Below are positions 1,891 to 23,694 of a stretch of DNA of 32,852 nucleotides, one piece after another; within the stretch, counting starts at the first letter, position 1; the number at the start of each line of letters is the position of its first letter. A model generated the notes under the pieces. The model saw only the letters and a program-made list of their open reading frames with translations. It searched no databases and had not been told where the DNA came from. Source of the DNA: an uncultured beta proteobacterium (GTDB lineage Bacteria > Pseudomonadota > Gammaproteobacteria > Burkholderiales > Burkholderiaceae_C); assembly GCA_903954045.1 (NCBI GenBank), contig CAJBMJ010000442.1, forward strand, positions 1 through 32,852, read 5' to 3'. Both the position numbers and the translations under genes were made by a program.

Positions 1891-4107
1891 ATGAGCATCT
1901 ACCACTTCACCGTCAAGATGCACTCTCGTGCCAAGAACAAGAAACTCCGCGCCCTGCGTGCCTATGCCTACCGAGCTGGAACTCGTGTCGTGGACCCCAT
2001 CACCCAGGCTGTCTACAACAGCACAGCCAAGCGGCATGAGGTCATCCGCTGCAATACCATCACCCCGGACATCGGACCTGCCTGGAAGGACGATCCACTC
2101 GAGCTATGGCACCAGGTGCAGCAGATTGAGAAGCGCGTGGACGCGGGTCTCTTCAGAGAATTCGAATGTGCCTTACCTAAAGAGGTCGCCAGCGCACAAC
2201 ATCCCGAAGCCTGGGTTGCCCTGATAGAAGCATTCATTCGGGACCAGCTCACCCCCCATGGTGTCCTGGTGACCTACGCCATCCACAGCAAGCCGAGCAA
2301 CCCCCATGTCCACATGATGTGCACCACCCGCACCTGGGGTGACGACGGGTTTGGACTCAAGAACCGCAGCCTGGATACCTTCAAGATGCTCTACCAATGG
2401 CGGGCATCCTGGGCAGACCATTGCAATCAGGCATTGCAAACCGCTGGACGATTCGAGCGGGTCACCCACAAGTCCTATGCCGAACTCGGCATCAAGCGGG
2501 AAGCCACATCTCATGTCGGACCCGTTCACAGCGAACAGAGTGACCCTGGCTATGCCCAGAAGCGCCAGGAGGTCATCGCCAGCAACCGCAAGGTGCGAGA
2601 CCGAAACTTGCGCCGCAAACATGAACGACAGCGGCTGGCACAGGTGCATTGCCAGGCAGGCATTCATGCAGTCCAGATGGTGCGGACCGTCAAACCGTGG
2701 GTGCCATGGACAGCAACGGCACAGCCTTCGATACCAACACCCTTGCAGCCGACTGTAGCGTCCTACCCATTGGCGCATCGGGTGGTTCAGCTAGAACAAC
2801 CCGCAGCAACCATCCATTCCGTGGACGATACGGCGGAACACAGAGCGCGCCAAGAACTATTGAACGCATGGCCGGGGGCACTGGATGCCTTTGCCAAGCT
2901 CCAACGCTGGAGATCCACCATGGGCCGTACTTGGTCCTGGTCCATCTTCCTGGCGCAGTACCAGCGCATCAGCAAGACCCAGGACAACCCACTGGCAGAA
3001 CTCCTGACCAAAGAATTGATGTGGGTCGTGAGCCGTGCTCCACACAAGGTGGCTTCTTGCCTTCAGGCTGCTGACCCACCCGATCTGATTCGGGCAGCCA
3101 GCGCGGTACGTTCTTGGGCGATCAAGCACAAACCGCAGTGCCTACCGGCATTGGAAACTCTCATTGAATCCGCCCGTGCCACGCTACCGGAATTCCGGCA
3201 GCGTACAAGTCCCGTTGATCGTGAAGCTACGTCCACGAACAACGATGAGGCAAATCTGAACAACCGAGCAGACATTCCAACAGCAGACACAGACACCCCA
3301 AGCACTTTTGCCCAATCCTTGGCAGCGTTCCCGGAACTGGCACACCTAGTCCCGTTCCTGACGGACATCGTGGTGCCATGCCAGCGATTAGCCAAAGCCA
3401 TAGATAGGGCATTCACACCCGCAATCCTGTTCAAACGGCTTCAACGTTTGCAGGTCGAAGGGGTTCTTGACCCCAGAATCACCCTGGATTCCCTGGTTGA
3501 TGCCTTATTGACCAAAGACCTGGTGTTTGCCGCCAAGCGCAGACCGCATCGCCTGATGGATGCTTTGAAAGCCGTTCCACCATTACGCCGTACCCAGTTT
3601 GAATGCGTGGTCCGGGATGTTCTGGCAGGTACCGTCTATGAAGCCGGTCATGACAGAGCAGCCCAAGCCTTGTCGGAATTCCAGCAGCGTGAATTGCAAG
3701 CCCGATGGTCCATCGAGCAGGTGCTGACACAGCAGCAAATCGCCGACTTTGAACATCGTCGGGCATATCTGAACGCTTTGGGGCAGGAATATTCCTGGCA
3801 CGCATTTCAGAACGATATCAACCGGTATGCCCAGAGTGAGCAGGGATGGCAGCGGGCGTGGTGGGATGTGCAGGTTCAATCTGTAAACCCGAATGCATGG
3901 CAGACAGTCAGCCAGCACGTCCCGGCTTGGTATGTCGTACCCGACGAATTACGTCATCGATTCGAATCCCATGGCCAGGGCGGGATGGTGCAGACGGGGG
4001 AAGGGCGCCATGGTCAAACCACCGCATCCGCCGTCCACAAATATGCCCCCGAAGGGCACAGAAACGACCGTCATGACGCCAACTTTGATCGCTGTGACGG
4101 CAACTGA
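1891..4107 (+). CDS. MobA/MobL family relaxase
   Basis: N-terminus MSIYHFTVKMHSRAKNKKLRALRAYAYRAGTRVVD...; downstream HSKPSNPHVHMMCTTR matches the HxH-containing relaxase motif III of MobA/MobL (MOBQ). ATG at 1891 is preferred over the 1837 ORF-track start. Confidence 0.9.
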   Translation: MSIYHFTVKMHSRAKNKKLRALRAYAYRAGTRVVDPITQAVYNSTAKRHEVIRCNTITPDIGPAWKDDPLELWHQVQQIEKRVDAGLFREFECALPKEVASAQHPEAWVALIEAFIRDQLTPHGVLVTYAIHSKPSNPHVHMMCTTRTWGDDGFGLKNRSLDTFKMLYQWRASWADHCNQALQTAGRFERVTHKSYAELGIKREATSHVGPVHSEQSDPGYAQKRQEVIASNRKVRDRNLRRKHERQRLAQVHCQAGIHAVQMVRTVKPWVPWTATAQPSIPTPLQPTVASYPLAHRVVQLEQPAATIHSVDDTAEHRARQELLNAWPGALDAFAKLQRWRSTMGRTWSWSIFLAQYQRISKTQDNPLAELLTKELMWVVSRAPHKVASCLQAADPPDLIRAASAVRSWAIKHKPQCLPALETLIESARATLPEFRQRTSPVDREATSTNNDEANLNNRADIPTADTDTPSTFAQSLAAFPELAHLVPFLTDIVVPCQRLAKAIDRAFTPAILFKRLQRLQVEGVLDPRITLDSLVDALLTKDLVFAAKRRPHRLMDALKAVPPLRRTQFECVVRDVLAGTVYEAGHDRAAQALSEFQQRELQARWSIEQVLTQQQIADFEHRRAYLNALGQEYSWHAFQNDINRYAQSEQGWQRAWWDVQVQSVNPNAWQTVSQHVPAWYVVPDELRHRFESHGQGGMVQTGEGRHGQTTASAVHKYAPEGHRNDRHDANFDRCDGN

Positions 4108-6056: not shown

Positions 6057-6234
6057 CCGTCTATTCGTGACCGGTAGGTAACGCGAAAACTCTGACAATA
6101 CCCTTGATTTAACACTGGTTAAACTAAGTCTAATTCAGTGAAAGTATTCGCGCTTTGCGGCGGCGGAAGTCTTGCTCTGTACAACCACCCGGACTGTGGG
6201 AACTGGAGGGGCCGGGGATTTGAAAAGAAACACC

Positions 6235-8322
6235 ATGTCCAACAACCGCATCACCCGCCTTACGCACAGGCTGTTTGTCTGCGCGCTCGCCACCCTGCTT
6301 TCATGTTCTTTAGCCCATGCAGCAACGATCACGGTAACCAGCACTGCGGACAGCGGGGCCGGGTCACTCCGCCAAGCCATTGCAGATGCCGCTGCCAACG
6401 ACACCATTGCCTTCAGCGGCAACGGCACGATTACATTGGCAAGTGAACTCGCCGTCAACAAAAACCTGAGCTTTGTTGGCAATGGCGTGGGCAACACCAT
6501 CATTGATGGTAACAACAGCGTGCGGCTATTCAGCGTAGATCGAAACATCACGGTAAGCTGGGCCGACATGACCCTGACCCGGGGACGCGCTAACGATGGC
6601 GGCTGTATATATGCCCTCAACCCATCTGTGGTGACCCTGACACGTGTGACCGCCAATGCATGTGCCGCAATTCTTAATCTTGGCGGCGCGATTCATGGTT
6701 ATTCAGTTAATTTGACGGACAGCACTATTAGCGGCAATAGCGCAACGTCCTGGGGCGGTGGCATTTTTGCCTTCGGTGATCTCATGGTATCCAATTCGAC
6801 GATCACAGCCAACAGCGTCGGAGCTCGAGGGGGTGGAATTTATTTCCAGCCAAGTTCTGGTAATGCGCTCACCATTCTTCATAGCACAATTTCTGGGAAT
6901 ACTGCGTCTGAAGGCGGTGGTATCTATGTTTTTCTTGCTCCTCCAATTTCCATCGGTCACACGGTACTTGCGGGTAACAACGCCAGCATATCCTCTCCCG
7001 ATGCGTATGGACCATTTGCCTCGACCGGTTACAACGTGATCGGCAATACCACTGGAATGACCATCACTGGCACCACAACAGGAAACATCATCAACGGTGC
7101 AGCTTCACCGCTCAGCCTCGGCCCATTGGCCGACAACGGTGGCCCCACCAAAACCATGGCGATCGGCGTGGACAGCGTGGCCTATAACGCGGGTGACCCT
7201 TCCTTTTCCGGATCACCGAGCACCGACCAGCGCGGCACAGCGCGGGTGAAGATGGGGCGCATCGACATTGGTGCGTACGAGAGCAGTGACCCCGTTGTTG
7301 CCATCACGCCGTCCACCCTCAACATTGCAGAGGGTTCTTCGGCCAACGTCACCCTCACGCGCACCGGCAGCACCGCGAGCGCACTCACCGTCAACCTGAG
7401 CATCACTCAGGGCACGGGTATCACAGGTGCTGACTACACCTTGTCGGGCGCATCCATCAGCGGCCAGAGCGGCAGCGTTACCGCCACCATTCCTGCAGGC
7501 AATTCCTCGGTCAATATCGCCGTGGCGGCTCAGAATGATGTGATACAAGAGTCCAGCGAAGTGCTCACGCTGACACTGGTTGACGCCCTCAGCTACGACT
7601 TGGGAGCCACCACGTCCAGCGCGGCCACACTGCTGGACAATGATTTTGTTCTGACGGTGACTACTGCTGGCACTGGAAGCGGCACCGTCGGTGGCAGCGC
7701 CGCCGGTACTTACAACGCGGGGAGCGCACTGACCCTGACCGCGACACCCGATACCGGCAGCACATTTTCTGGCTGGAGCACGGGTTGCAGTGCGTCGTTC
7801 AATATGCCATCCAGCGATCTGACCTGTACGGCGACCTTTGTACCGGCGACCACTTCGCGGTCTAGCATTTCGACAATTTCTAGCGGCGTGACTGCCACGT
7901 TGTCGGCAGCGGGTTGTAGTGCCGTTGACAGTGCAACTTTCATCGCGCCACCTGCCGGTGCGCCAAGCAACACGAGCTTCCCCTATGGATTGCTGGACTT
8001 CACCTTGAGTGGCTGCGCTGGCAGTGCGACAGTAACCGTGACCTACTCGCAGAACCTGCCAAGCGGTGCTACTTTCTACAAAATCAGAACAGGGACGTAT
8101 CAGACGTATACGGCCTCCGTGGGATTCAACAGCGTGACCTTCACACTGACAGACAACGATTCATGGGACGGCGATGGAGGGGCTGGTGTCATCAAGGACC
8201 CAGGCGGACTCGGATTTGGCAGCACCACCAGTATCCCAACCCTGTCTGAGTGGGGCATGATCATTCTGTCAGCGCTGCTTGCCCTGGGGTCATTCGGAGT
8301 TATGCGGCGCAGGCAGGTCTGA
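6235..8322 (+). CDS. IPTL-CTERM surface protein with choice-of-anchor Q/parallel beta-helix, Calx-beta-like and choice-of-anchor U regions
   Basis: MSNNRITRLTHRLFVCALATLLSCSLAHA signal peptide; ITVTSTADSGAGSLRQAIADAAANDTI (beta-helix start); GAYESSDP; SSANVTLTRTGSTASALTVNLSI...; C-terminus IPTLSEWGMIILSALLALGSFGVMRRRQV. Confidence 0.9.
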   Translation: MSNNRITRLTHRLFVCALATLLSCSLAHAATITVTSTADSGAGSLRQAIADAAANDTIAFSGNGTITLASELAVNKNLSFVGNGVGNTIIDGNNSVRLFSVDRNITVSWADMTLTRGRANDGGCIYALNPSVVTLTRVTANACAAILNLGGAIHGYSVNLTDSTISGNSATSWGGGIFAFGDLMVSNSTITANSVGARGGGIYFQPSSGNALTILHSTISGNTASEGGGIYVFLAPPISIGHTVLAGNNASISSPDAYGPFASTGYNVIGNTTGMTITGTTTGNIINGAASPLSLGPLADNGGPTKTMAIGVDSVAYNAGDPSFSGSPSTDQRGTARVKMGRIDIGAYESSDPVVAITPSTLNIAEGSSANVTLTRTGSTASALTVNLSITQGTGITGADYTLSGASISGQSGSVTATIPAGNSSVNIAVAAQNDVIQESSEVLTLTLVDALSYDLGATTSSAATLLDNDFVLTVTTAGTGSGTVGGSAAGTYNAGSALTLTATPDTGSTFSGWSTGCSASFNMPSSDLTCTATFVPATTSRSSISTISSGVTATLSAAGCSAVDSATFIAPPAGAPSNTSFPYGLLDFTLSGCAGSATVTVTYSQNLPSGATFYKIRTGTYQTYTASVGFNSVTFTLTDNDSWDGDGGAGVIKDPGGLGFGSTTSIPTLSEWGMIILSALLALGSFGVMRRRQV

Positions 8323-8606: not shown

Positions 8607-9563
8607 TCATCGTCGTGCAGCCCTAACCCGCGTCCATCCAATCAAAAGCATCAATAAAACCAACAATAGCTTACCCCACTCAGAGAGTGTAGGTATGCCG
8701 TTGATTTGGGTGACAGCAATGGTGCGATCGACATCTGGAGCAGCAAGAAAATTTGAGTCACCGATCTGGCTGGCACGGACCACGCAATTACCAGCCCCGG
8801 TCAATGTAAGTGTTGAGTTGGCAAGCGAACAAGGGCCGGAAACTACTGAGAACGTTACTGGGCTCGTTGAGCCACCGCCATTTGCAGAGAGGGTTAGTAC
8901 ATCACCCACAACTCCAGTACTCGGGGGATTGAAGGTAATGGCCTGACTTGATAACCAGATCGGATTATTGGTGTAACTCCATGCTTGCTGAATTAGGCTG
9001 TCGTTGCCAAGCAATACCTTTAGCCAAAGTTTAGATCCGTTCTCTCCTGGAAATTCAGCGCAAATGAAAGAATTCGGTGATGTGCTGAACGATCCGCTAT
9101 AGGCGGCATTCTCACACGTGCCGGGATCATTGTTGCCATCGATGCTTCCCACGCGGTAGGCCCAGAAGTTAAAGGTCCCCAACACATTGATCACGGTGGG
9201 GTTTGCTGGGCCAATAAGGCCAAAATGTGGTGTGGGTGTATCGGTGACTCTGATTGCCAATGAAATAAAACGTGCTGTTGCTGGTGTCAATATTTGCCAT
9301 CCACCGCAACCTGAACGGTATTCGGTGCTGGTACTGATCAAATCAGGACACGCTCTGACCTCACTTTTCGCGACGTTGCACAGAACAAGCCCGAAAAATA
9401 GCGTGGCGAGAATTCTTATAAATACAGGCACACGGGATTTGATTACGGTAACTGGACTGGCTTTTCGAATGGCGCCTAGCATCGGCAACCCAAAGGCTTG
9501 CGATGTTTCCCCAGACGCCATCGTGCAAACCAAATTTTGACGAGTGTATTCCTCGCTGCGCAT
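8607..9563 (-). CDS. IPTL-CTERM surface protein (318 aa)
   Basis: C-terminus INGIPTLSEWGKLLLVLLMLLIGWTRVRAARR; preceding Ig-like/MBG-like segment (SVVSGPCSLANSTLTLTGAGNCVVRASQIGDSNFLAAPDVDRTIAV). N-terminal start uncertain. Confidence 0.85.
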   Translation of the reverse strand: MRSEEYTRQNLVCTMASGETSQAFGLPMLGAIRKASPVTVIKSRVPVFIRILATLFFGLVLCNVAKSEVRACPDLISTSTEYRSGCGGWQILTPATARFISLAIRVTDTPTPHFGLIGPANPTVINVLGTFNFWAYRVGSIDGNNDPGTCENAAYSGSFSTSPNSFICAEFPGENGSKLWLKVLLGNDSLIQQAWSYTNNPIWLSSQAITFNPPSTGVVGDVLTLSANGGGSTSPVTFSVVSGPCSLANSTLTLTGAGNCVVRASQIGDSNFLAAPDVDRTIAVTQINGIPTLSEWGKLLLVLLMLLIGWTRVRAARR

Positions 9564-10428: not shown

Positions 10429-10837
10429 GGAACGGTCTTTCCTGAGTGACAGGTTTGGAGCAATGAATCATTTCGCCACGACTAGGCCCGATACCTAACA
10501 TTCTCTGCAGACTCCTTCGTGCGCCAAGCGGTCGTAATCGTCGATCAGCTGTTCGACTTACAGCTCACCTTATTTGCGCGTGGTTCCAGTCCGTAGATGT
10601 CTGTGTAAGGTTGAATCATGCTCATGGTGACATTGAGTGACGACTGGTTTCCGTTAAAGCAATTCCAAACTTCGTTTTACGCGTAAATTGGCTCGCATGT
10701 GGCTCAATGGGTTTATCAGTCAATCCTTAGCAACACCCCGTCCAAATGGACGGGTGACTGGGCTGGCGCAAACCAATAACATCATTCAACGCCTTACCTG
10801 TAAATTTACGCCCAGTTTTTCTCAAAATGGCCTCACG

Positions 10838-13800
10838 ATGAAATCCGCTTCTCGCACTGCTGGTCTAGCCGCCTTCCTACTGCACTCAGGCCCCTCCCGC
10901 CGTATTTCGCTGTGGTTGGCCAGTGCATTTGCCCATCTAATGGTCGTTGCCTTGCTTTCACCTGCCACGGCTGCACCGCTGGTCATTAGTGATGGCGCGA
11001 CGGTCACGCTATCAACAAACACCAGCGGAACAGCAGGAACCAACGGTGTGACAGGTGCTACTGGCGCGGGCGGATCGGCAGGCGCAGACGGTAGCGTGGG
11101 CGCCACAGGGGCAGTCGGTGCCGCAGGCGTCGCAGGCACGAGCGGCACCGCAGGAAGCCCTAGCGGCAGTGGAGGTGCCAGCGGTGGAGTTGGCGGCACC
11201 GGTGCCACGGGTGGAAGCGGACTGACAGGTAGTAGCGGGGGCGCGGGGGGGTGGGGCGCGACAGGTACGGTGGGCGTCGAGGCCGTGAGCTACTCCGGTG
11301 TGGGGACTACCACTGCGGTACTCACCAACAGCGCGACGATTGAGGGCGGCAGTGGAGGACAAGGCGGAACCGGAGGCACGGGCGGCACAGGCGGGCAAGG
11401 CGGCAACGGCGCGACGGGCGGGTCCGGTGGCGTTGGAGGCCAAGGTGGTTCAGGTGGAGCTGGCTACAGCAACAATTCTGGCAATGGTGGCAATGGCGGT
11501 GCCGGTGGCAACGGTGGGGCGCCCGGTGCGGGTGGAGCCGGTGGCAATGGCGGTGTCGGTGGCAATGGCGGTGTCGGCGGCGCCGGTAGCACCGGTGGCA
11601 TTGGTGCAACCGGCATCCGCCAAGATGCAGGCAGTCTGCGCGTAATGAATCAGGGCAACCTATACGGCGGCGCGGGTGGGGCAGGCGGTACTGCCGGTGC
11701 TGGGGGAGCCGGCGGGACTGGGGGCACTGCCGGTGGTGGGGGCGCGGGCGGCCCGCTTGGTGGAGCCGGTGGAGCCGGTGGCGCCGGCGGCGCAGGGGGC
11801 AGCGATTCCAACTACATCGGATCTTCTACCGGTGGCAGTGGCGGCGCAGGTGGTCAGGGATTTAGCGGTGGCAATGGTGGACCCGGAGGGAGCGGCGGGT
11901 CGGCATATGCATTCGGTAACTTCGTGACGGCTGAAGGTGGCGCCGGCGGAATTGGGGGGCAGGGAGCGAACGGTGGTGCGGCTGGTTTTGGGGGTAGTGC
12001 TTCCGCGCAAGGAAATGATGTTACAGCAAACGGCGGGATGGGCGGGATGGGCGGGATGGGCAGTACTTCCGGAAACGGAGGGGCCGGTGGAAACGGAGGT
12101 GGCGCGAATTCGGCAGGGGTTCGTCCACGTGCCACCGGTGGCGCCGGCGGTAGCGGTGGCAGTGGCGGTGCCGGTGGTAGCGGCGGGTTAGCAGGCACCG
12201 CTAGCGCAATAGGGATCGACACCATTACCAATGCTGGTTCGGCTGGTGCAGCTGGGGCAACAGGCGGTTTCGCACCGACGACGTCGCCCGGTGCAAATGG
12301 TACGGCGGGCAACGGAGGGGGAGGCGGCTCGGCAGGAGGGTCGGGGTCAACCGGTAACACCGGAAACGGTGGTGCAGCGATCCTGAGTCAGGCTGGCAGC
12401 GTCCGTCTTGAAGTTCTCAACACTGGGGCAGGCATCATTCGTGGCGGAAGCGGCCTCAACGGTGGTGCGGGCATCCAATCGGCAGCCAGCACGCTTGTCA
12501 TCGAGAACCTTGCCGGCGGCAGCATTCTAGGTGGCGTCGGCAGCAATGCCTATGGCATTGACGTCACCGGCGGTATTCTCACCAGTCTGTCCAACACCGG
12601 AACCATCAGCGGAACTGGCAATGGCGCCGGGATTCACAATGCGGGCGCTATCACCACACTGACCAACCGGCAGGATGGCCTGTCCTACACCGGCACCGCT
12701 CCCGCCAACTATTACGTCGACATTGCCGGAACTACTGCGGGTCAGTATGGCACGTTGATAGTGAAGGACTCCCCCAACTGGAATATCAGTGCATTGAATT
12801 TTGGGGTTGCTTCCGGCTCGACCTTGGCCGAAGGCGTAATCTACCAAGATGTGATCCAGGGAAGCGGGACGACCAGTTTTAACAGCACGGCAAGCAAGAC
12901 TGGCAGCTTTGTTGCAGGCGGCACGACCTACAACTATTCTCTGGTCTATGACGGTAACAGTTGGGACCTGACGCTGGTCGGCATCTACACCGTCACCTTC
13001 GATGCCAACGGCGGAAGCGGCAGCATGAGCACGCAGAGTGGCAGCTACAACACCACCGCAGCGCTGACCAACAATGCTTTCACCCGCACCGGCTATACCT
13101 TTGCGGGCTGGAATGCGGTTCAAGGCGGAGGCGGTGCAGCCTATGCCAATGGTGGAAACTACACATTTACGGCCAGCAACACGCTGTACGCCCAGTGGAA
13201 CATCAACAGCTATGCCGTCACCCCCAACGCAGGCGCTGGCGGAAGCATCAGTCCCAGCGGCGCGCAAACAGTAAATCACGGTGGAACCACCAGCTTTACC
13301 GTCACACCCAATACGGGATACAGCATAGCCAGCGTGACGGGTTGCAGCGGCAATCTGAACGGAAATACCTACACCACAGCAGCAGTAACCGGGGCCTGCG
13401 CGGTGAGCGCAACCTTTAGTGCAAACACATCGGTCACCGGCTCCACCGCCGGTGGCTCGGTCACGGCAGCCATCACCGGCGGCACTTGCGCTGGTTTTGT
13501 CACTGGCAGTACCCAGTTTGCAGCGGGTAGCAATGCACCGGCAGGCCAGACCTTCCCCTACGGCAGCTTTGGCTTTACTGCCACGGGGTGCGGCACCAGT
13601 GGAGGCAGTGTGACGATCACCCTGAACTATCCGCAGGGCCTGCCAGCACAACCCAAGTTCTACAAACTTATCAGCGGCAACTGGGTGGATTGGACTAGCC
13701 GGGCTACCTTTGGCGCGAACACGGTGCAGTACACGGTGCAGGACAACCAATTGGGCGACAGCGATCCGGCAGCCGGCGTCATCACTGACCCGGTGGCGCT

Positions 13801-13936
13801 AGCGGCACCTGCCGAACTGGCCAGCATTCCTACGCTCAATGAATGGGCGTTGATGCTGCTGGCGAGCTTGATGTTGATGCTGGGGATGTGGCAGGTGCAG
13901 CGCCGTTCTGTCGTTGCCGGGGCGATGGAAATTTAA
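10838..13936 (+). CDS. Large Gly-rich (GGX repeat) IPTL-CTERM surface protein with InlB B-type repeats and choice-of-anchor U
   Basis: Signal peptide from ATG 10838 (MKSASRTAGLAAFLLHSG...); about 450 aa of GGxGGx repeats; YTVTFDANGGSGSMSTQSGSY...GYTFAGWN...LYAQW; C-terminus IPTLNEWALMLLASLMLMLGMWQVQRRSVVAGAMEI. Confidence 0.88.
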   Translation: MKSASRTAGLAAFLLHSGPSRRISLWLASAFAHLMVVALLSPATAAPLVISDGATVTLSTNTSGTAGTNGVTGATGAGGSAGADGSVGATGAVGAAGVAGTSGTAGSPSGSGGASGGVGGTGATGGSGLTGSSGGAGGWGATGTVGVEAVSYSGVGTTTAVLTNSATIEGGSGGQGGTGGTGGTGGQGGNGATGGSGGVGGQGGSGGAGYSNNSGNGGNGGAGGNGGAPGAGGAGGNGGVGGNGGVGGAGSTGGIGATGIRQDAGSLRVMNQGNLYGGAGGAGGTAGAGGAGGTGGTAGGGGAGGPLGGAGGAGGAGGAGGSDSNYIGSSTGGSGGAGGQGFSGGNGGPGGSGGSAYAFGNFVTAEGGAGGIGGQGANGGAAGFGGSASAQGNDVTANGGMGGMGGMGSTSGNGGAGGNGGGANSAGVRPRATGGAGGSGGSGGAGGSGGLAGTASAIGIDTITNAGSAGAAGATGGFAPTTSPGANGTAGNGGGGGSAGGSGSTGNTGNGGAAILSQAGSVRLEVLNTGAGIIRGGSGLNGGAGIQSAASTLVIENLAGGSILGGVGSNAYGIDVTGGILTSLSNTGTISGTGNGAGIHNAGAITTLTNRQDGLSYTGTAPANYYVDIAGTTAGQYGTLIVKDSPNWNISALNFGVASGSTLAEGVIYQDVIQGSGTTSFNSTASKTGSFVAGGTTYNYSLVYDGNSWDLTLVGIYTVTFDANGGSGSMSTQSGSYNTTAALTNNAFTRTGYTFAGWNAVQGGGGAAYANGGNYTFTASNTLYAQWNINSYAVTPNAGAGGSISPSGAQTVNHGGTTSFTVTPNTGYSIASVTGCSGNLNGNTYTTAAVTGACAVSATFSANTSVTGSTAGGSVTAAITGGTCAGFVTGSTQFAAGSNAPAGQTFPYGSFGFTATGCGTSGGSVTITLNYPQGLPAQPKFYKLISGNWVDWTSRATFGANTVQYTVQDNQLGDSDPAAGVITDPVALAAPAELASIPTLNEWALMLLASLMLMLGMWQVQRRSVVAGAMEI

Positions 13937-13950
13937 TAGAGAGAGACTTC

Positions 13951-16900
13951 ATGATGACCATCTTGTCCGACCGACTGCCTTCCTGGAAAAGCCTTGTTTT
14001 TGCTGTCGTCTGCCTGAACGCCTCGTTCATCGCCTGCGCTCAGAACATCACTGCGTTTAGCGGGGGCGGGCAACGTGCCCAGGTTGGCACAGCGTTTTCC
14101 AATCCGTTCGTGGCTGTGGTAACCAACACGAGTGGCGTACCCCAATCCGGACAGTCGGTTACTTTTTCCGGTTCGGGTCTGGATACCAATTACACCTACA
14201 CCGCCACGACAGACGCCAATGGCCGCGCATCCCTGGCGCTTTATGCAAACGCCACGGCTGGCGCTTACACGGTCACGGCAATACTCAACGGCGCCCATTC
14301 GGCCATGGCCACGTTCGGTGCGCGTCAGGGCACCAATGCCAGCTGTACTGCAAATATTTCCGTCACAAGCGGGAACGATGCGGGAGCGGGCACGTTGCGC
14401 GAGGCTGTCAACGAGGTGTGCGCTGGCGGGACGATTGATCTGACGCCATTGACATGTGGCAGCACCGTCACCCTGGCGAGTCGCCTGTATCTGGCGTCAG
14501 ATGTGACGATCAAAGGGCCGCCGAGCTGTGGCACCCCCGTAACGATCAGCGGCAACAATGTCACGCGACAATTTTTTGTTCAAGGTGGAGACGTCACGCT
14601 GCAGGACCTGACCCTGGCCAACGGGCGTGGTGCCGGTGGCAATGCAAGCCAAGCGGGCGCGGGTGCGGGCATGGGTGGTGCCATTTTTCAGAACGGTGGA
14701 CATCTGCGGCTGGTGAACGTAGCGCTGAATAGTAATGTGGCTCAGGGTGGCGGATGGGACGGCGGCACCGGCGCACCCGGCGGAGGCGGTTTTGGAGGTG
14801 ACGCCGTAGTGCTGCAGACCCAGGAGGCTTACGGTACTGGCGCTAACGGTGGCGATCTGGGAGGGGCTGGCGGCACTTATCCTAGATGGGTCTGTGGTGA
14901 CCGCAACGGTGGAGACGGTGGGGGCGGGGCGGCGGGCTCACTTTACTGCGGTGGTCAGGCCGACGGCGGGGCGGGGGGCTTCGGTGGTGGTGGTGGCAGT
15001 AGCAGTGGCGGTGGCACTTACTATGGCGGACGTGGCGGATTTGGCGGAGGCGGGGCCGCCGGAAACAATGCATTCCAATCCAGTAACGGTGGTTGGGGCG
15101 CCAACAAGGGGACCGGTTTGCCCAGTGGAACTGGTGCGGCAGCCGGGTTTGGGGGCGCAATTTTTGCGCGCAGAGGGCTGCTAGACCTGAGCAATGTCAG
15201 CTTTACCAGCAACGCGGCCTATGGGGGACGAAGCAACCCCAATTCTATGTACACCCAATACTACGGTCAGGGCAAGGGCGGGGCCTTGTTCGTCTATGAC
15301 GGTGCCCTGGTCAACGCGAGCAATGTCAGTTACTCGGGCAATATTGCGGCTGATGCCGGGGTGGCGGGTATTGGTGAGTCGCCCGCGCCGTACACCTTTG
15401 GCAGCACCTGTCCGGGAAGCGACACCGTTAACCTGTGCGGTACCGTCGTTATTGGCGGCAGTGTGGGGAGTGGCCATGTGCTGAACCTGACTGTGCAGGG
15501 CAGCGGAAGCGGAAGCGTCAGCTCGGGTGTGGTCGCTTTGAATGAAATCAATTGCCCGGGCATGTGCTCCAAATTCGGGAACGGCTCGGTGACGCTGACC
15601 GCCACTGCAGCGGATGGCAGCATGTTCACGGGGTGGGGTGGGGCGTGTAGCGGCACCGGGACATGTACCGTGTCCCTGGCGAGCGCGGATCAGGCAGTTA
15701 CAGCTACCTTTATTCCTGGCTTCACCCGCATTGGCAACGACGGCAACCCGACGAGCAGTACCACGCTGGGTACTGGCCCGACCGACTGGGCCTGTACACG
15801 CGATAACGCCACCGGCTTGGTCTGGGAGGTCAAGACGACCAGCGGGCTGCGCAGCCAGACTACGACCTATACCAACTACGACAGCAGTTACGGCACAACC
15901 GCGCAGATCAACGCCGCCACCAACAGCATGGGCTTTGCCAATGCGGTCAACGACACCGCCTTGTGCGGCTCGGCGCAGTGGCGTATGCCAACCGTGGCTG
16001 AACTGCAGGGCATCGTCAAGGCGGGAGCCACAAACCCGGCGATCGATACGACGTATTTTCCGAATACGCCTAGTTCGTACTTTTGGTCGGGTTCGCCCAG
16101 TATCATGAGCTACGCGTGGAACGTGAACTTTGGCGACGGAGTTGCCGCCAGCGGCGGCGTCCGCGACAGCGGCAGCGTTGCCGTTCGCCTTGTGCGTGGC
16201 GGACAGTCTTTTGCCACTTCTGCGCTTGACGTCACTGTGACCGGTGGTGGCGCGGGCAGTGTGACCACGGGCAACATCAACTGCACCCGCTCGGGCGGCA
16301 GCACCAGCGGCACCTGTTCCGAGGGCCGCGGCACCAACAGTGTGGTCACCCTCACAGCCACGCCAGTTACGGGCAGCACCTTTGCGGGCTGGGGCGGAGC
16401 CTGCAGCGGCAGTGCCAGCACTTGCAGCATCACCATGGATGCAGCCAAAGCAGTGTCGGCCAGTTTCAACCTCAACACCTACACCGTCACCCCCAGCGCA
16501 GTCACCGGCGGCACCATCAGCCCCAGCGGCGCACAAACCGTGAGCCACGGTGGAACCACCAGCTTTACCGTGTCGCCTAGCCCGGGTTACAGCATTGCCA
16601 GCGTCACGGGTTGCAGCGGTAACCTGAGTGGCAACACCTACACCACAGGGGCGATTACGGGCGCGTGCATCGTCAACGCCACGTTCAGTGCCAACACATC
16701 GGTGACCGGCTCTACAGCCGGTGGCTCGGTCACGGCAGCCATCACCGGCGGCACCTGCGCCGGTTTTGTCACCGGTAGCACCCAGTTTGCAGCGGGAAGC
16801 AATGCACCGGCAGGCCAGGCGTTTCCCTACGGAACCTTTGGGTTTACCGCTACGGGCTGCGGAAGCGGTAGTGGAAGCGTCACCATCACCCTGACGTATC

Positions 16901-17196
16901 CGCAAGCTCTCCCAGCACAACCCAAGTTCTACAAACTTATCAGCGGCAACTGGGTGGACTGGGCTAGCCGGGCTACCTTTGGTGCGAACACGGTGCAGTA
17001 CACCGTGCAAGACAACCAGGAGGGCGACAGCGATCCAGCCAACGGTGTGATCACAGACCCGGTGGCACTTGCAGCTCCTGCGGCGCTCACCAGCATCCCA
17101 ACCTTGAGCGAATGGGGTCTGATGCTGTTAGCGGGAATGATGTTGATGTTGGGGATGCGGCAGGCGCAGCGCAGAGTGGAGCGAGCATGCTCCTAG
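13951..17196 (+). CDS. IPTL-CTERM surface protein with beta-helix, Gly-rich, Lcl/DUF1566, InlB-type and choice-of-anchor U regions
   Basis: ATG at 13951 after GAGAGAGAC; NISVTSGNDAGAGTLREAVNEVCAGGTI; Gly-rich middle; FTRIGNDGNPT...LVWEVKTT...WRMPTVAELQGIV...YFWSGSPSIMSYAWNVNFGDG...AVRLVRGGQ (DUF1566/Lcl); C-terminus IPTLSEWGLMLLAGMMLMLGMRQAQRRVERACS. Confidence 0.88.
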   Translation: MMTILSDRLPSWKSLVFAVVCLNASFIACAQNITAFSGGGQRAQVGTAFSNPFVAVVTNTSGVPQSGQSVTFSGSGLDTNYTYTATTDANGRASLALYANATAGAYTVTAILNGAHSAMATFGARQGTNASCTANISVTSGNDAGAGTLREAVNEVCAGGTIDLTPLTCGSTVTLASRLYLASDVTIKGPPSCGTPVTISGNNVTRQFFVQGGDVTLQDLTLANGRGAGGNASQAGAGAGMGGAIFQNGGHLRLVNVALNSNVAQGGGWDGGTGAPGGGGFGGDAVVLQTQEAYGTGANGGDLGGAGGTYPRWVCGDRNGGDGGGGAAGSLYCGGQADGGAGGFGGGGGSSSGGGTYYGGRGGFGGGGAAGNNAFQSSNGGWGANKGTGLPSGTGAAAGFGGAIFARRGLLDLSNVSFTSNAAYGGRSNPNSMYTQYYGQGKGGALFVYDGALVNASNVSYSGNIAADAGVAGIGESPAPYTFGSTCPGSDTVNLCGTVVIGGSVGSGHVLNLTVQGSGSGSVSSGVVALNEINCPGMCSKFGNGSVTLTATAADGSMFTGWGGACSGTGTCTVSLASADQAVTATFIPGFTRIGNDGNPTSSTTLGTGPTDWACTRDNATGLVWEVKTTSGLRSQTTTYTNYDSSYGTTAQINAATNSMGFANAVNDTALCGSAQWRMPTVAELQGIVKAGATNPAIDTTYFPNTPSSYFWSGSPSIMSYAWNVNFGDGVAASGGVRDSGSVAVRLVRGGQSFATSALDVTVTGGGAGSVTTGNINCTRSGGSTSGTCSEGRGTNSVVTLTATPVTGSTFAGWGGACSGSASTCSITMDAAKAVSASFNLNTYTVTPSAVTGGTISPSGAQTVSHGGTTSFTVSPSPGYSIASVTGCSGNLSGNTYTTGAITGACIVNATFSANTSVTGSTAGGSVTAAITGGTCAGFVTGSTQFAAGSNAPAGQAFPYGTFGFTATGCGSGSGSVTITLTYPQALPAQPKFYKLISGNWVDWASRATFGANTVQYTVQDNQEGDSDPANGVITDPVALAAPAALTSIPTLSEWGLMLLAGMMLMLGMRQAQRRVERACS

Positions 17197-17423
17197 CTCT
17201 GGATGGCATAAAGAACAGGTTTCAGGAAGCCAATAAATGTCGACTTTTTGGCGGCCAATCAACAGGTCGATAAGACGGAAATGGGTCGCCAGGAGCCTTC
17301 CAATCTGCACCCCCATTCCAGTTCTGCGCCCCCAACCTCCCTAAATTTCGCTGCTCAAAAAACAAGCACTCTTTCAGCCCACCCCGCCGCAACCCGCATA
17401 AACACTAGGGTTTGGTACCCCAC

Positions 17424-17450
17424 TTGACAAAGCGGGGGTCGATTTGTCAA
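17424..17450 (+). promoter_or_regulatory. Inverted-repeat regulatory element, copy 1 (upstream of 669-aa gene)
   Basis: TTGACAAAGCG-GGGGT-CGATTTGTCAA followed by TCTGGTT; near-identical to the element at 19971-19997. Confidence 0.7.
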
Positions 17451-17480
17451 TCTGGTTTCACACATAAAGGAACCATAGAC

Positions 17481-19490
17481 ATGACAAATAATCAAAACCC
17501 ACAGGGAACCAAAACCCAGACCCACACGGACCAATCAACTCCGTCAAACATCGCGGCGACCCAGCTTGCAACGGTTGCATCTACATCCGCCCGGCAATTG
17601 GACTTGAAACAACTCCAGACCTGGATGACCCGCGACTGCGCAGCCCAACTCCGTCAATTGGCAAAACACCAATGCGAGGTTCAGTTGGAATTCGTCGAAG
17701 ACACCGACACCTTAGAACCCATTCCAACCATTGGTATGGTGCACACGCCCAGCGCAGGCAAACCTAAGGACCCCCATCCAGCATTGGCACGCTGGCAAGT
17801 TCGCAGTGCCGTGTCGTACGTTGATGCCATCGACTCCATGGAAAAAGCCCAGGTCTTACTGCTCGATAGGTTGGAGCGCATGGTCCAGATTGCACCCGGC
17901 TTGGTGGCTTTCAGCAAGGTATTGGGCAAGTTGGACACTCAGAGCAAAGTCACTTGTGCCACAGCATTCATGCCCGACTTCAGCCCTGGTGTGATGGACC
18001 CCAGCGGAATGGAGCTGGTCTTGCAGCGTCTGGTACAAGAGCCGCTTGCCGATGATTTCGAAGGCAAGCGCTCCACACGCGAATGGATTTCCCTGGAAGA
18101 ATGGCTATCCGTTTGGATGAAGCTCTACCACAGGGAGTTGAAGTCCTTCAACCCTGTGGCAGGACGGCACTTTGTGGAACGTATCCGCAAGAACAGACCC
18201 GACCCCCAACAGCAGGCATTTCATTTCAAAGACAGGGATGCGACCTACAAGGGGACATGGAAATACTTCACCCGCAACAAGAAACCCATGGCCCAAGTCA
18301 AAGGCACAGTTCATGTTCCGATTGCCTGCCTGAACCCATGCAAGGATGAAGACCAGAATTTGAGCTTTTCAGGGCCAACCGTTGAACTGCACTTTGACGG
18401 GGTTGAATTTCTGTTTGACGTTGCTGCGTTCGGGTGGGACCAGACCCAGTGGAAGCCAGCCAGTATTGCTACCACCGACGCCGCTGGTGTTTTTGACTTG
18501 GATGACGACCAGTCCGACGCCAACCCCACCCCCGAGTTCAGTCCTGAAGATTTAGTCGAAGCCATTAATGCGCGCTTGTCAGCAGAACTGGCGGACGTAC
18601 TGGCAGATTTCCGGGCGGACGGATTGTGCGAAGTCTTGGCCATGCAAACGTCTCGCCCGTCCGGTTCACGGGGAAGGAATGCCGCAAATCAGTCAAATCT
18701 GGCGCTGGTCTTCTATGTGAACTCTGCTCAACCAGTCACTTACCACGCGGTGTACAAAGGTCCCGAATATCCCTGGGCAATGTGCCAGGTGATGGAGTCG
18801 GTGACATCCATGCAGGATTTTGAGCGTGCATTTGAATCAGTGGTTCACCGCTTACCCAAGATTCGCAGCAGTTTGCTGGGGCTCCAAAATCTGTTGGGCA
18901 GCATCGATAACTACGGCACCGCCTTGACGGTAGATGCTTTGTTGGAAAGTGCGGGTGGCTGGGTCGTCGATAACGGCGGGATGGGCTTGGTGGCGGGCAA
19001 ACATGTGCGAAGCAATTACGTTCGCATTTGGGACGATTGGACCCTACCCATCAGTGGCTCTACCGAGAACTACTTGGCACGTTGGTGCGATTCTGTAGCC
19101 ACCGTCAAGTTAGAGAGCACCCCAGAACCAGCTGGTGAGTTTTTGGACTATCTGGAATTCGACGAAGACGGCTCCTGGCTGTCGAAGTGGGCTGACAGAA
19201 CCATTCAGGGGACTTGGGCCTACGAGGTGACGCTCGATAAGCCGCATGTGGTTTTGAGCCACCGCCTGGAGTTTGGTCTGCCTTCTTTGGATATGGATGT
19301 TAGCCATCGTGTACCCCCGGTTGCCACCTGGCGAGTGAAAGCTCAGATGGTCATCGACGGTGTAACTTTGGTGGGCAGTGATGAAGCATTGACACTACGC
19401 ATGGTCGGCAATCTTCTACCCACTGCCGAACTGGACCGCAGCGTTTCATCCGGGATGGTGGAGGAGATTGAAGCGGAGATTTTTGGATAA
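17481..19490 (+). CDS. Hypothetical protein (669 aa), uncharacterised island cargo
   Basis: Long ORF with ATG at 17481 (MTNNQNPQGTKTQTH...) downstream of AAAGGAACC; no recognised domain; C-terminal third resembles the 20023 protein. Confidence 0.8.
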   Translation: MTNNQNPQGTKTQTHTDQSTPSNIAATQLATVASTSARQLDLKQLQTWMTRDCAAQLRQLAKHQCEVQLEFVEDTDTLEPIPTIGMVHTPSAGKPKDPHPALARWQVRSAVSYVDAIDSMEKAQVLLLDRLERMVQIAPGLVAFSKVLGKLDTQSKVTCATAFMPDFSPGVMDPSGMELVLQRLVQEPLADDFEGKRSTREWISLEEWLSVWMKLYHRELKSFNPVAGRHFVERIRKNRPDPQQQAFHFKDRDATYKGTWKYFTRNKKPMAQVKGTVHVPIACLNPCKDEDQNLSFSGPTVELHFDGVEFLFDVAAFGWDQTQWKPASIATTDAAGVFDLDDDQSDANPTPEFSPEDLVEAINARLSAELADVLADFRADGLCEVLAMQTSRPSGSRGRNAANQSNLALVFYVNSAQPVTYHAVYKGPEYPWAMCQVMESVTSMQDFERAFESVVHRLPKIRSSLLGLQNLLGSIDNYGTALTVDALLESAGGWVVDNGGMGLVAGKHVRSNYVRIWDDWTLPISGSTENYLARWCDSVATVKLESTPEPAGEFLDYLEFDEDGSWLSKWADRTIQGTWAYEVTLDKPHVVLSHRLEFGLPSLDMDVSHRVPPVATWRVKAQMVIDGVTLVGSDEALTLRMVGNLLPTAELDRSVSSGMVEEIEAEIFG

Positions 19491-19557
19491 AAATTCGGGA
19501 GTGGGTAGGAAACTTGCCCGCTTTCAGAAATCGCGCCCGGTGCGCAGAAAGGAAATC

Positions 19558-19926
19558 ATGGACATCGAGAACCCGATAACTGCCCTGTTGCTGTTTACAA
19601 CCATAGCTCAAACATCCCCCGATGCGGATGAAGTTCAGGAATATGCAGAACAGGCGCAAGTGATTATTGACACCTACAACCTCGATGAAGATGTCATTTC
19701 GTCAACCAGTGCGCTGTCAAAAAAGTTGATCGAACAGCACGAGAAAAAATTCTTCATTGAGGTCCATCTGGGTGACGGTTCAAAGGCGCTGGTTGGCTGC
19801 GACGACCAAGAGACCCTGAAAAACGGCTTGGTCAAGTTTCAAACTGAATACCCAGGGAGTGTTCAAATCAGTTTCCAGGAGGCGTACCCGTCGCTATGGA
19901 ATGCAATAGCGGAAGAACGAACCTAA
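19558..19926 (+). CDS. Hypothetical acidic small protein (122 aa)
   Basis: ATG at 19558 with AGAAAGGAAATC upstream; MDIENPITALLLFTTIAQTSPDADEVQEYAEQ...; lies between the two paralogous genes. Confidence 0.65.
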   Translation: MDIENPITALLLFTTIAQTSPDADEVQEYAEQAQVIIDTYNLDEDVISSTSALSKKLIEQHEKKFFIEVHLGDGSKALVGCDDQETLKNGLVKFQTEYPGSVQISFQEAYPSLWNAIAEERT

Positions 19927-19970
19927 ACCGGATAGCGTCCCCAAGAATAGGCGTGGCACCCGCCCATCAC

Positions 19971-19997
19971 TTGACAAATCGCATCCCGATTTGTCAA
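19971..19997 (+). promoter_or_regulatory. Inverted-repeat regulatory element, copy 2 (upstream of 341-aa gene)
   Basis: TTGACAAATCG-CATCC-CGATTTGTCAA (perfect 11-bp arms) followed by TCTGGTT. Confidence 0.75.
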
Positions 19998-20022
19998 TCT
20001 GGTTGGACAAGGGAGAAATCAC

Positions 20023-21048
20023 ATGCCAGCTATCAGTTCCAACAATAGACCAACCAGCCAAACCAATCCGCCTGTAAACACCCGCATATCTCAAATGCCC
20101 ATGGGCACTGCCAGAGACCCCTACATTGAAGCCCTGGATGCCCACATGCATGCCCAGTTCGCAAGCGCTGTAGGCGCATTTGAAGACGATGGGCATTGCC
20201 AGATACGTGTCATCGGATTGCATGCCTACGAAGGGGCGCCATGGTCACCTGGCTTGCTCATGAATTACCGATTGCCCAGTGGTCCCGTACCCGACGATGG
20301 ACCCCACTATTACAGACAGTGGGCGTTCCGGCTGGATTTGACGGATGTAACGTCCATCGGGCTGTTTCCTTCGGCCATGGCGATGGTCGTTCCCAGGCTG
20401 CCCAGCATTCGGCAAACTTTGATTGCCTTGCACCAAACCCTTGGATATATCGACAACCTTTACAACGAGGAAGCCTTCGAATCCCAAATCCGGGAGGATT
20501 ACCCCACGTTGACTGACGACTCTGGGCTCCAGTTTCTGTTGTGTCCGGTCAATGATGCCACCCAAGACCACACGCGATTGATACCGACCGACCCTGTGAC
20601 CGATGGGGGCATGGAAGATTGGATGTCGGACTGGTGCGTCTTTGCCCAGCATATGAAGACACAGGGCGAACCGGTACTGACGAGGGAATTTTTGGCATCA
20701 ATCCAACTGGCAGATACGGACGGCAACTGGTTCAGTGCCTATGGCAAGGAGATGCGTTTTATCCGACCACACCTGGAAGCACTGCCGGGTGGTCCTGTGC
20801 TGGTGATGGAGATGCAGACCAACCACTATTTGCCAATCTTCGACCTGGCGAGTCGGTTTCAGGAACGTGGGGGCATGTGGCCCCGCTTGGGACTCAAATT
20901 TGCGGATGCCGGGACGTTGGGGATGGAGCCGGGCTTATTTATGGCAGGGGTGAACATGGGGTGCAATCCGTTGCTGGTGAGTGCAAGACGGGACGCCGAG
21001 ATGGTCGCGGCCGCCACTGGGATTGGCGGGGATGTGTTTTGTGAGTGA
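20023..21048 (+). CDS. Hypothetical protein (341 aa), distant paralogue of the 669-aa protein C-terminal region
   Basis: MPAISSNNRPTSQTN...; VPRLPSIRQTLIALHQTLGYIDN matches VHRLPKIRSSLLGLQNLLGSIDN of the 17481 protein. Confidence 0.78.
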   Translation: MPAISSNNRPTSQTNPPVNTRISQMPMGTARDPYIEALDAHMHAQFASAVGAFEDDGHCQIRVIGLHAYEGAPWSPGLLMNYRLPSGPVPDDGPHYYRQWAFRLDLTDVTSIGLFPSAMAMVVPRLPSIRQTLIALHQTLGYIDNLYNEEAFESQIREDYPTLTDDSGLQFLLCPVNDATQDHTRLIPTDPVTDGGMEDWMSDWCVFAQHMKTQGEPVLTREFLASIQLADTDGNWFSAYGKEMRFIRPHLEALPGGPVLVMEMQTNHYLPIFDLASRFQERGGMWPRLGLKFADAGTLGMEPGLFMAGVNMGCNPLLVSARRDAEMVAAATGIGGDVFCE

Positions 21049-21159
21049 GTCAATGGCTCTTTCGAGCACATCGGGAGCCTTTCATTGGAGGAACTTGCAT
21101 CGGACCTCATTCGCACCGGCATTATCTGGAGGAATCCCAGATGCAGGTGTCTTCATACC

Positions 21160-22494
21160 TTAACGGAAAGCTTCATCAACAGAGGGGAGGGTGCGAACTT
21201 CCTCCACGAACTTTTTTGCGTCGGCAAGTCCTAGTACCTTGGTCAATGCGCTGATGCCCCGGTGCCGTACAGATCCGGAGTGCTCCACGAGCAGGGCATA
21301 GAGCTCTTCAACCTGGACGTCGAAATAGCGTCTATTCAGAACATCCAGACTCTTGTGGCCGGTTAGGCGACTTAACTCCATCGGGTTGTTGACCTTCTTG
21401 GAAAGATCCTTGGTGGCAATTTTTCTCAATGAGTGGAAAGTCAGTTTTTTAATTGGGGGGTCAGCTTTGGCACATGCAATAGAAAACGCACCTGTGACAG
21501 AGTTGATAGTGTTGGAAAAAATGAGCCCAGATTTCGTGGGGCTTGCTTCATAGAGCGGACGCAGTATGTCTTGCATCTCCGGTGTAAGAGGCACGGCACG
21601 GCCCAGGGATTGGGTCACACTTTTCGTGTGATCGTTTTTTTCTCGGGGCAGGGTAAGGATATTGTTGGCCCAGTCGATATCCTCCCAGCGCATACCGCCT
21701 GATTGTTCGCCGGTTATCTTGTCCTTTGCGCCTTGAACGATTTCGCTTCGACGAAAAGCCATCGCTAATGACAGCTTAACGATAGGAATCATCCAGGGAG
21801 AGTGCGCCTGGAGGGCTGCGATCAGGCGCTCGTACTCATTTCCAGACCATGACCGCTGCACATTGTTCTTGGGTTTGGGTAAGGAAATCCCGCTGGGTGG
21901 GTTGTCTACGGGATAAAGCCATTCATTGGCGGCATGGGAGTACAACGAGGTCAGAACGGTGAAGTAGTTGCGTACCGACGAAGCGGAATATTTTTCTTCC
22001 AGCAGCTTGTCTCGAAGTAGGATGTAGTCCTTCTTTTTCAGGTCGCGAAGTAGCTTGTTTTCTCCCAGCCACTCCGACAAATGATTCACCCGGTGTCCGA
22101 CCTCTCTAAACGAACTCTTTCCGGCGTAATGTTGGCCATGAAAACGCTTGAGTGCCTGTTTGATCGTGATGGTTTCGTATTCGGCAACAAAGCCACCGTG
22201 CTTGGTGCGAATTTTCTTGATTTCTTCCTCTTGAGACTTCGCCCAAGCATTTGCATTGTCAAGGGTGTCATGCGTGGCGGTTCTGACAACCAGATTTCCA
22301 TCGGCGTCTGACAACTTGATTTGCACCTCGAATGCTGTTTCCAGTTGCCTGAGGGCATTTTTCGGAAGGTTATGTGGGTCTGCATGCCCCTGACTGGCCA
22401 GGTAGGCAAGCGCTTTGGATTTGAGTCGGAACTTTTGCTCTGCCTGACCTTTTAGCTTGACTTGCCAGGGTGATCGGTTTGTGATGTTCGCCAT
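21160..22494 (-). CDS. Tyrosine recombinase / phage-type integrase
   Basis: MANITNRSPWQVKLKGQ...; AFRRSEIVQG, LTFHSLRKIATKDL, LTGHKSLDVLNRRYFD give the R...HxxR...H...Y catalytic pattern; next to a tRNA 3' fragment. Confidence 0.93.
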   Translation of the reverse strand: MANITNRSPWQVKLKGQAEQKFRLKSKALAYLASQGHADPHNLPKNALRQLETAFEVQIKLSDADGNLVVRTATHDTLDNANAWAKSQEEEIKKIRTKHGGFVAEYETITIKQALKRFHGQHYAGKSSFREVGHRVNHLSEWLGENKLLRDLKKKDYILLRDKLLEEKYSASSVRNYFTVLTSLYSHAANEWLYPVDNPPSGISLPKPKNNVQRSWSGNEYERLIAALQAHSPWMIPIVKLSLAMAFRRSEIVQGAKDKITGEQSGGMRWEDIDWANNILTLPREKNDHTKSVTQSLGRAVPLTPEMQDILRPLYEASPTKSGLIFSNTINSVTGAFSIACAKADPPIKKLTFHSLRKIATKDLSKKVNNPMELSRLTGHKSLDVLNRRYFDVQVEELYALLVEHSGSVRHRGISALTKVLGLADAKKFVEEVRTLPSVDEAFR

Positions 22495-22597
22495 GTCACA
22501 CATGCCTTCATGCAACACCCCGCCAAATTGAATTCGCGATGCTCACCGGAGGGCGGTATCTCCATTTCGAAAAATTTTTCGTTTGACATTGTGACCG

Positions 22598-22620
22598 AGT
22601 TTGGGAAATAGTTTGGGAAA
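22598..22620. repeat. Direct repeat AGTTTGGGAAA(T) x2 between integrase start and att
   Basis: AGTTTGGGAAAT AGTTTGGGAAAG. Confidence 0.8.
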
Positions 22621-22720
22621 GGTTAAAAATCACTATGAAAATTTCCAGTTTCTCCAATGAAAACGCAATTTTTATTTATGGAACAAATTTGGGTTTAGGT
22701 CCTGTCGGTAGCAATACTGT

Positions 22721-22748
22721 GCTGGTTCGAGTCCAGTCGGTCGCACCA
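22721..22748 (+). other. Orphan tRNA 3' end (T-arm, acceptor strand and CCA), candidate attR
   Basis: GCTGGTTCGAGTCCAGTCGGTCGCACCA forms a T-arm plus CGGTCGC-A-CCA, but no 5' tRNA half lies upstream. A terminator hairpin follows directly. Confidence 0.7.
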
Positions 22749-22757
22749 CCCTGAAAT

Positions 22758-22796
22758 GGCTGAAACCCCAATGAAATCAAAGGTTTCGGCCTTTTT
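22758..22796 (+). terminator. Terminator downstream of the tRNA 3' end
   Basis: GGCTGAAACC...GGTTTCGGCC followed by TTTTT. Confidence 0.7.
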
Positions 22797-22889
22797 CAGT
22801 ACCCAAGCTTGATTTCCAGCGCCAGCAAGGCTATTCTTGAGCCGGGCGAATGCCTCGCGCAATGAAAGCGTGCCCTGCACTCAGGGACT

Positions 22890-22915
22890 AACCCGGCCTT
22901 ACCGCCGGGTTTTTC
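22890..22915 (+). terminator. Rho-independent terminator-like hairpin
   Basis: ACCCGGC-CTTACC-GCCGGGT followed by TTTTC. Confidence 0.6.
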
Positions 22916-22925
22916 GTTTGTATCC

Positions 22926-23348
22926 TCATTCGCTAGTTGGATTGATGTCGCAACCCTCAATGCGTCTGACAAATTGAGGCCAAAGTCTCCAAAGTACAAC
23001 GGAAACCACCAAACCGGAAACAGTGTCAACCAGCCAATCAGTGATTGCCGCAGTTCGGTAAGGGAAGAAACTTTGGACGTATTCATCCAGAGCACCCATT
23101 GCCGCAACCGTTAGGATCGCAGTGAATGCACGCCTGGACGCCGCCCCAAAAGTGCCCACAAAAATCAGTGTGCTGATGACTGCGTAGGCAACCGAGTGCA
23201 AAACCAAGCCGGTCGCATAGTTGGCAATGTCCTGCCTAGCTCCGGGAATTGAGCCCACTGCCAAGATGAGCAGGTAAAAAAATATTCCTGCCCTGAAGCA
23301 AAAATGCTGAAAACCAGGGGAAATCAATGCTTTCGGCGAGATTCGCAT
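22926..23348 (-). CDS. VanZ-like family membrane protein
   Basis: 140 aa, about 4 hydrophobic segments, GALDEYVQSFFPYRTAAITDWLVDTVSGL typical of VanZ-like proteins. Confidence 0.75.
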   Translation of the reverse strand: MRISPKALISPGFQHFCFRAGIFFYLLILAVGSIPGARQDIANYATGLVLHSVAYAVISTLIFVGTFGAASRRAFTAILTVAAMGALDEYVQSFFPYRTAAITDWLVDTVSGLVVSVVLWRLWPQFVRRIEGCDINPTSE

Positions 23349-23412
23349 GGGTGCTTGGTAGGTACAAAACCCTGTACTGCAGTCTGTAAACAGTCTGTAT
23401 CAGCCAATAATG

Positions 23413-23447
23413 AAAAAACCCCGCTATATATTCAATAGCAGGGTTTT
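23413..23447 (-). terminator. Terminator of tRNA-His
   Basis: Minus strand: AAAACCCTGCTAT...ATAGCGGGGTTTTTT. Confidence 0.8.
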
Positions 23448-23458
23448 CAATGTTTACT

Positions 23459-23535
23459 TGGGGTGGCTGATGGGGCTCGAACCCACGACAACAGGAATCA
23501 CAATCCTGGACTCTACCAACTGAGCTACAGCCACC
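23459..23535 (-). tRNA. tRNA-His (GTG)
   Basis: Minus strand GGTGGCTGTAGCTCAGTTGGTAGAGTCCAGGATTGTGATTCCTGTTGTCGTGGGTTCGAGCCCCATCAGCCACCCCA; cloverleaf with GTG anticodon and encoded CCA. Confidence 0.95.
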
Positions 23536-23694
23536 GTAGCACAAATTATATCGCAAGCAACTTTGCGCCGTCCCAAAGCAGCCAGGTCATTGGACTATTT
23601 GACTGAGCGATACAGGAATAGGTTAAAATCGCGGGCTTAGCGAAAAGTACATTAGATTGGCTAATGCGGCTGACGCGCCTGATTGAGAAGATAT

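Follow-up and report, generated by a model that had tools for sequence, protein, structure and literature searches.

In the TetR/QacR-, LacI- and Cro/CI-type arrangements, bacterial promoters carry a repressor operator which overlaps the -35/-10 region. A dyad is also found within the metal-responsive promoters of the MerR family, e.g., PpbrA of Cupriavidus, in which the dyad sits in a spacer of 19-20 bp and activation works through that spacer (PMC3431237). Here we describe two near-identical inverted repeats, each placed shortly before one of two distantly paralogous genes, P1 and P2, in a window of 32,852 nucleotides (the whole stretch of DNA analysed) from an uncultured beta proteobacterium. 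They resemble the repressor-operator promoters in that the dyad lies between and across the predicted -35 and -10 elements, at about -23, is followed by a short leader and is common to genes which are predicted to be co-regulated. However, no regulator gene is adjacent, the motif is unmatched in any collection searched and the combination of 11-bp arms with a 5-bp centre was not matched to a known operator. With PpbrA (PMC3431237) they share a dyad centred in the promoter spacer, a consensus-like -35 and a weak -10, whereas the spacer here is 18 bp, the dyad takes in the entire -35 and extends to the -10, and no MerR gene lies nearby; a MerR-type promoter was rejected as the best spacing is 18 bp and not 19-20 bp.

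The regulatory architecture is ordinary and of a known kind, and the genes behind it are ORFans; what is unusual is that this arrangement singles out two ORFan paralogues of a mobile element as probably co-regulated. The carrier is similar to the integrative mobilizable elements found at tRNA genes in having an integrase, a duplicated tRNA 3' end, a MobA/L relaxase and an ArdC-like protein, and in that the gene adjoining the integrase differs in one readable related element. It is unlike known integrative mobilizable cargo in that P1, S (the gene between P1 and P2) and P2 are without detectable relatives, and the assembly lacks the central part of the element.

Two copies of one dyad before paralogous genes

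The motif TTGACAAA(G/T)CG-N5-CGATTTGTCAA occurs twice in the window as two 27-bp copies (Table 1), and both lie exactly where a sequence-only reading had placed them, 30 bp before the ATG of P1 and 25 bp before that of P2. Copy 1 reads TTGACAAAGCG-GGGGT-CGATTTGTCAA-TCTGGTT (to 17457) and copy 2 TTGACAAATCG-CATCC-CGATTTGTCAA-TCTGGTT (to 20004), which bears out both the perfect 11-bp arms claimed for the second copy and the divergence of the 5-nt spacers, GGGGT and CATCC having no base in common at any position. The arms of copy 1 carry a single uncompensated mismatch, G for T. The CAC which that reading also quoted begins three bases before each dyad, at 17421 and 19968, and aligned in register from there copy 1 is CACTTGACAAAGCGGGGGTCGATTTGTCAATCTGGTTtcACA and copy 2 is CACTTGACAAATCGCATCCCGATTTGTCAATCTGGTTggACA.

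Table 1. Coordinates of the features of the P1-S-P2 region and the right end of its carrier element (positions in the window).
Feature	Position	Strand	Detail
O1, predicted promoter-operator copy 1	17421..17462	+	42-nt conserved block CACTTGACAAAGCGGGGGTCGATTTGTCAATCTGGTTTCACA
Copy 1 dyad	17424..17450		arms 17424-17434 and 17440-17450, separated by 5 nt and mismatched at one position
Putative -35, copy 1	17424..17429	+	TTGACA
Putative extended -10, copy 1	17445..17453	+	TGT + CAATCT, 18-bp spacer; predicted +1 A at 17460
P1 ribosome-binding site	17466-17472		AAAGGAA
P1	17481..19490	+	669-aa ORFan; tandem pair of P2-like domains (residues about 1-345 and 346-669)
Third partial half-site	17482..17489	+	TGACAAAT; overlaps P1 start codon, complementary to O1 right arm
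S	19558..19926	+	122-aa ORFan between P1 and P2
O2, predicted promoter-operator copy 2	19968..20009	+	CACTTGACAAATCGCATCCCGATTTGTCAATCTGGTTGGACA
Copy 2 dyad	19971..19997		perfect 11-bp arms 19971-19981 and 19987-19997
Putative -35, copy 2	19971-19976	+	
Putative extended -10, copy 2	19992..20000	+	TGT + CAATCT; predicted +1 A at 20007
P2	20023..21048	+	341-aa ORFan; single-domain paralogue of P1
Tyrosine-recombinase integrase of carrier element	21160..22518	-	Phage_integrase 9.6e-12; phrog_1 1.5e-38
Probable integrase arm sites	22598..22619	+	two AGTTTGGGAA direct repeats
Right end of element	22692..22748	+	57-bp copy of tRNA-Leu(TAG) 3' end; with 22749 included, a 58-bp exact repeat

Up to TGGTT the copies, of which there are only two for comparison, share 31 of 37 bases (p about 9e-13 by a binomial test against a 27% background), and the 20-bp blocks flanking both of them mostly match at 3-9 of 20 positions. 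The differences fall on all five bases of the centre, a single base of the arms and the two bases just before the ACA which contains the predicted +1. To the left of the dyad only CAC is kept, whereas the right side is conserved well beyond it, into TCTGGTT and ACA. A recent segmental duplication, already disfavoured in the sequence-only reading, is excluded because the flanking blocks are unrelated and the two proteins are only 26% identical. The retention of 31 of 37 bases despite such divergence of the genes points either to constraint or to later homogenisation.

A genome-wide search, proposed earlier as a check for scattered copies, found the motif confined to these two gene starts, with no third copy within three mismatches elsewhere in the 4.4 Mb genome. 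Dinucleotide shuffles of the window gave no match at three mismatches, and the exact motif was absent from 2.9 million viral contigs, with fixed and variable spacer, and from a genome collection of 84,980 species. Among 401 family genomes two other single sites were found at up to two mismatches; these look like chance matches, the reversed control pattern having itself matched one genome. A literature search for the motif sequence gave, among the titles listed, chance primer matches only.

The distant paralogy suggested for the two genes is upheld by BLASTP (E=4e-18, 26% identity over 253 aa). The N-terminal half of P1 resembles both P2 (2e-6) and the C-terminal half of P1 itself (2e-5), and P1 is accordingly a tandem of two P2-like domains, so that a new domain family is seen three times, twice in P1 and once in P2. 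S is without a motif of its own upstream and is probably co-transcribed with P1. Significant matches in Pfam, PHROGs, PADLOC or NCBIfam are lacking for P1, S and P2 alike, as are matches among PDB sequences for P1 and P2. No homologue was found of P2 in 103 genus genomes, of P1 in 401 family genomes, of S in 151 family genomes or, using a profile of the P1/P2 domain, in 369 class genomes; nor were homologues of the three found in plasmids, phages or viral contigs, or of the genes in the genome collection (genome_contigs). The predicted structures are of low confidence (pLDDT 47 for the P2 model and 32 for the P1 model), and a Foldseek search of the P2 model against the PDB returned nothing better than E=1. 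The order of helices and strands in residues 31-213 of P2 recalls a class I type III secretion chaperone; nothing supports this assignment and it was dropped.

Predicted promoter-operator arrangement

We regard it as probable that both elements are paired, near-identical sigma70-type promoters with an overlapping operator dyad, through which one dimeric regulator acts on both genes. Each block would comprise, in order, a -35 TTGACA, an 18-bp spacer ending in the TGt of an extended -10, a -10 CAATCT, a GGTT discriminator and the +1 A of ACA, with the ribosome-binding site and then the ATG downstream of the predicted start; good ribosome-binding sites do lie 3' of the predicted starts at both genes. 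An operator which overlaps a promoter, with TTGACA as the -35 box as the sequence-only reading had suggested, fits best. The hexamer matches the consensus at 6 of 6 bases in both copies. The putative -10 hexamer, at 18 bp, matches TATAAT at 2 of 6 bases (the A at -11 and the T at -7) and is preceded by TGn. A strict consensus promoter scan reported no promoter at either site. By a weighted promoter score, the weights of which are general ones and not fitted to this organism, these are the best promoter-like matches in both upstream regions, and about 0.08% of the window's plus-strand positions reach such a score. Since the dyad contains the TG of the extended -10, this TG is not independent evidence for a promoter.

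With the exception of the leading CAC, all of the conserved bases fall on the -35, the dyad arms, the TGn and -10, the discriminator or the predicted +1. A promoter would explain why the right flank is conserved, as its bases fall on the -10, the discriminator and the +1; neither a dyad by itself nor an RNA hairpin would do so. That the sequence of the arms is kept and not merely their pairing, together with the uncompensated arm difference, is as expected for sequence-specific protein binding. Both dyads are centred at -23 relative to the predicted +1, and the 27 bp which begin with the -35 and end where the -10 starts would form the operator for a dimeric DNA-binding regulator. A dimer bound there would occlude RNA polymerase, and repression is the more likely sign because the dimer would cover both promoter elements. 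One such regulator would co-regulate P1, probably with S, and P2. Promoter activity, start sites, dimer binding and repression are all features which we infer from the two blocks and their surroundings.

No regulator gene adjoins P1 or P2. Two candidates, one an HTH_3/XRE protein and the other an HTH_17 protein, are encoded on contig C494 (locus L010), where the element most likely has its left end. The 27-bp dyad offers a defined DNA bait with which the regulator could be found. The partial half-site TGACAAAT, which overlaps the start codon of P1, may be an accessory one or may have arisen by chance.

Alternative explanations

The sequence-only reading had proposed either an operator or a structured 5' leader. 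The operator fits the conserved bases best, whilst the leader suffers from the absence of a start-codon hairpin at P2, and we consider it unlikely, though the strongest competitor. It would place the transcription start further upstream, so that the inverted repeat forms an RNA hairpin just 5' of the ribosome-binding site; at P1 the right arm could pair with either the left arm or the start-codon region and thereby create a translation switch. P1 lends itself to this, as the right arm together with TCTGGTTTC can pair with GGAACCATAGA..TGACAAAT and so cover both the ribosome-binding site and the AUG, at -14.1 kcal/mol compared with -5.6 for shuffles (1 in 1000 shuffles being as good), and the whole P1 leader folds with a z of -4.6. 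The P2 motif would form an 11-bp hairpin (-12 kcal/mol, z -7.4), and the copy 1 dyad at P1 would be the weaker of the two hairpins as RNA. However, hairpin energy is not independent evidence because any palindrome folds as RNA, 213 of 1000 shuffles (21%) fold as well as the P2 leader in the test for a start-codon hairpin, and the sole arm change breaks a pair without compensation. Rfam has no match in 17100-23600 other than tRNA, there is no better promoter-like site within 150 bp upstream of either motif, and the conserved ACA and right flank are left unexplained by an RNA leader. There is a slimmer chance that the motif is a relic, a plain promoter without an acting regulator which was duplicated with the ancestral gene and either survived or was homogenised by gene conversion. 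Such an origin would suit the paralogy of P1 and P2 and a conserved block extending only to the predicted +1, but 31 of 37 bases have been kept although the genes and flanks have strongly diverged, and a bare promoter neither needs a perfect 11-bp dyad nor normally constrains the bases between its -35 and -10.

The remaining two explanations are far less credible. If the copies were recombination sites, with 11-bp arms around a 5-bp centre and arranged as direct repeats around P1-S, a tyrosine recombinase could move P1-S as a cassette. A gene for such an enzyme is nearby and the arm length and layout are like those of Xer/dif-like sites, yet strand exchange by these enzymes needs matching centres and here the centres share no base; moreover, the element's own integrase uses a tRNA-Leu site of different sequence, and neither the conservation of the right flank nor the placement before the ATGs is accounted for. 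This is very improbable. The idea that the copies are intrinsic terminators, or members of a dispersed palindromic (REP-like) repeat, is largely refuted and the least probable of all. The sequences can form hairpins and copy 2 stands 44 bp past the stop codon of S; however, the stem is followed by TCTGGTT instead of a T-run, only two copies exist in the genome and the terminator scan lists neither of them.

The carrier element

Positions 1 to about 22748 of the window most likely belong to an integrative, probably mobilizable element inserted in tRNA-Leu(TAG), the middle of which is not assembled. This is based on the integrase, the tRNA repeat and the MobA/L relaxase (1837-4107). The integrase lies beside the direct repeat of the tRNA 3' end, and an intact tRNA-Leu(TAG) is found at the other end, on contig C494. 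It is because of this intact tRNA that C494, which also encodes the ArdC-like protein and both helix-turn-helix proteins, most likely carries the left end; as the intervening DNA is missing from the assembly, we infer the link between the two ends. The right end has two direct repeats of TTTGGGAA and the left end four (C494; L010 2891-2927, minus strand), and pairs of them also lie near three related integrases (L015, L016 and L017); they are probable arm-binding sites of the integrase. A comparison of the DNA to the right of the element with relatives, carried out as an empty-site check, gave mostly tRNA-His matches.

The three related integrases, which are 66-85% identical and come from other genera, are on contigs that stop about 90 to 1,100 bp past the integrase. 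On the longest of these the neighbouring gene is a different one (primase-like by eye) and the motif is absent. P1-S-P2 are therefore cargo of the integrative element. A first handle on the function of P1 and P2 is provided, namely that they are probably co-regulated, paralogous and cargo. It is conceivable, but doubtful, that P1, S and P2 constitute a new cargo system, e.g., for defence, anti-defence or element maintenance, built on an undescribed domain which occurs three times and switched as a unit via a dedicated 27-bp operator by a regulator borne on the element.

The element carries as further cargo a PGA_cap protein and a cluster of IPTL-CTERM surface proteins, several of them large. 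Four of the latter were identified by HMM match (6172-8322, 8607-9563, 10688-13936 and 13843-17196), and an IPTLSEWG motif was seen by eye in the product of 22-1176. Two of the large IPTL-CTERM proteins have a near-identical C-terminal region, which suggests that the 3' ends of their genes may have been recently duplicated or converted. Outside the element, about 98 bp at 22824-22921 end in a terminator-like stem (AACCCGGCcttaccGCCGGGTTTTTCG). This sequence has no Rfam match, and partial copies with 78-89% identity are present at three further genomic sites (C497, C11 and C146) and in relatives; it is possibly a family of small RNAs or terminators.
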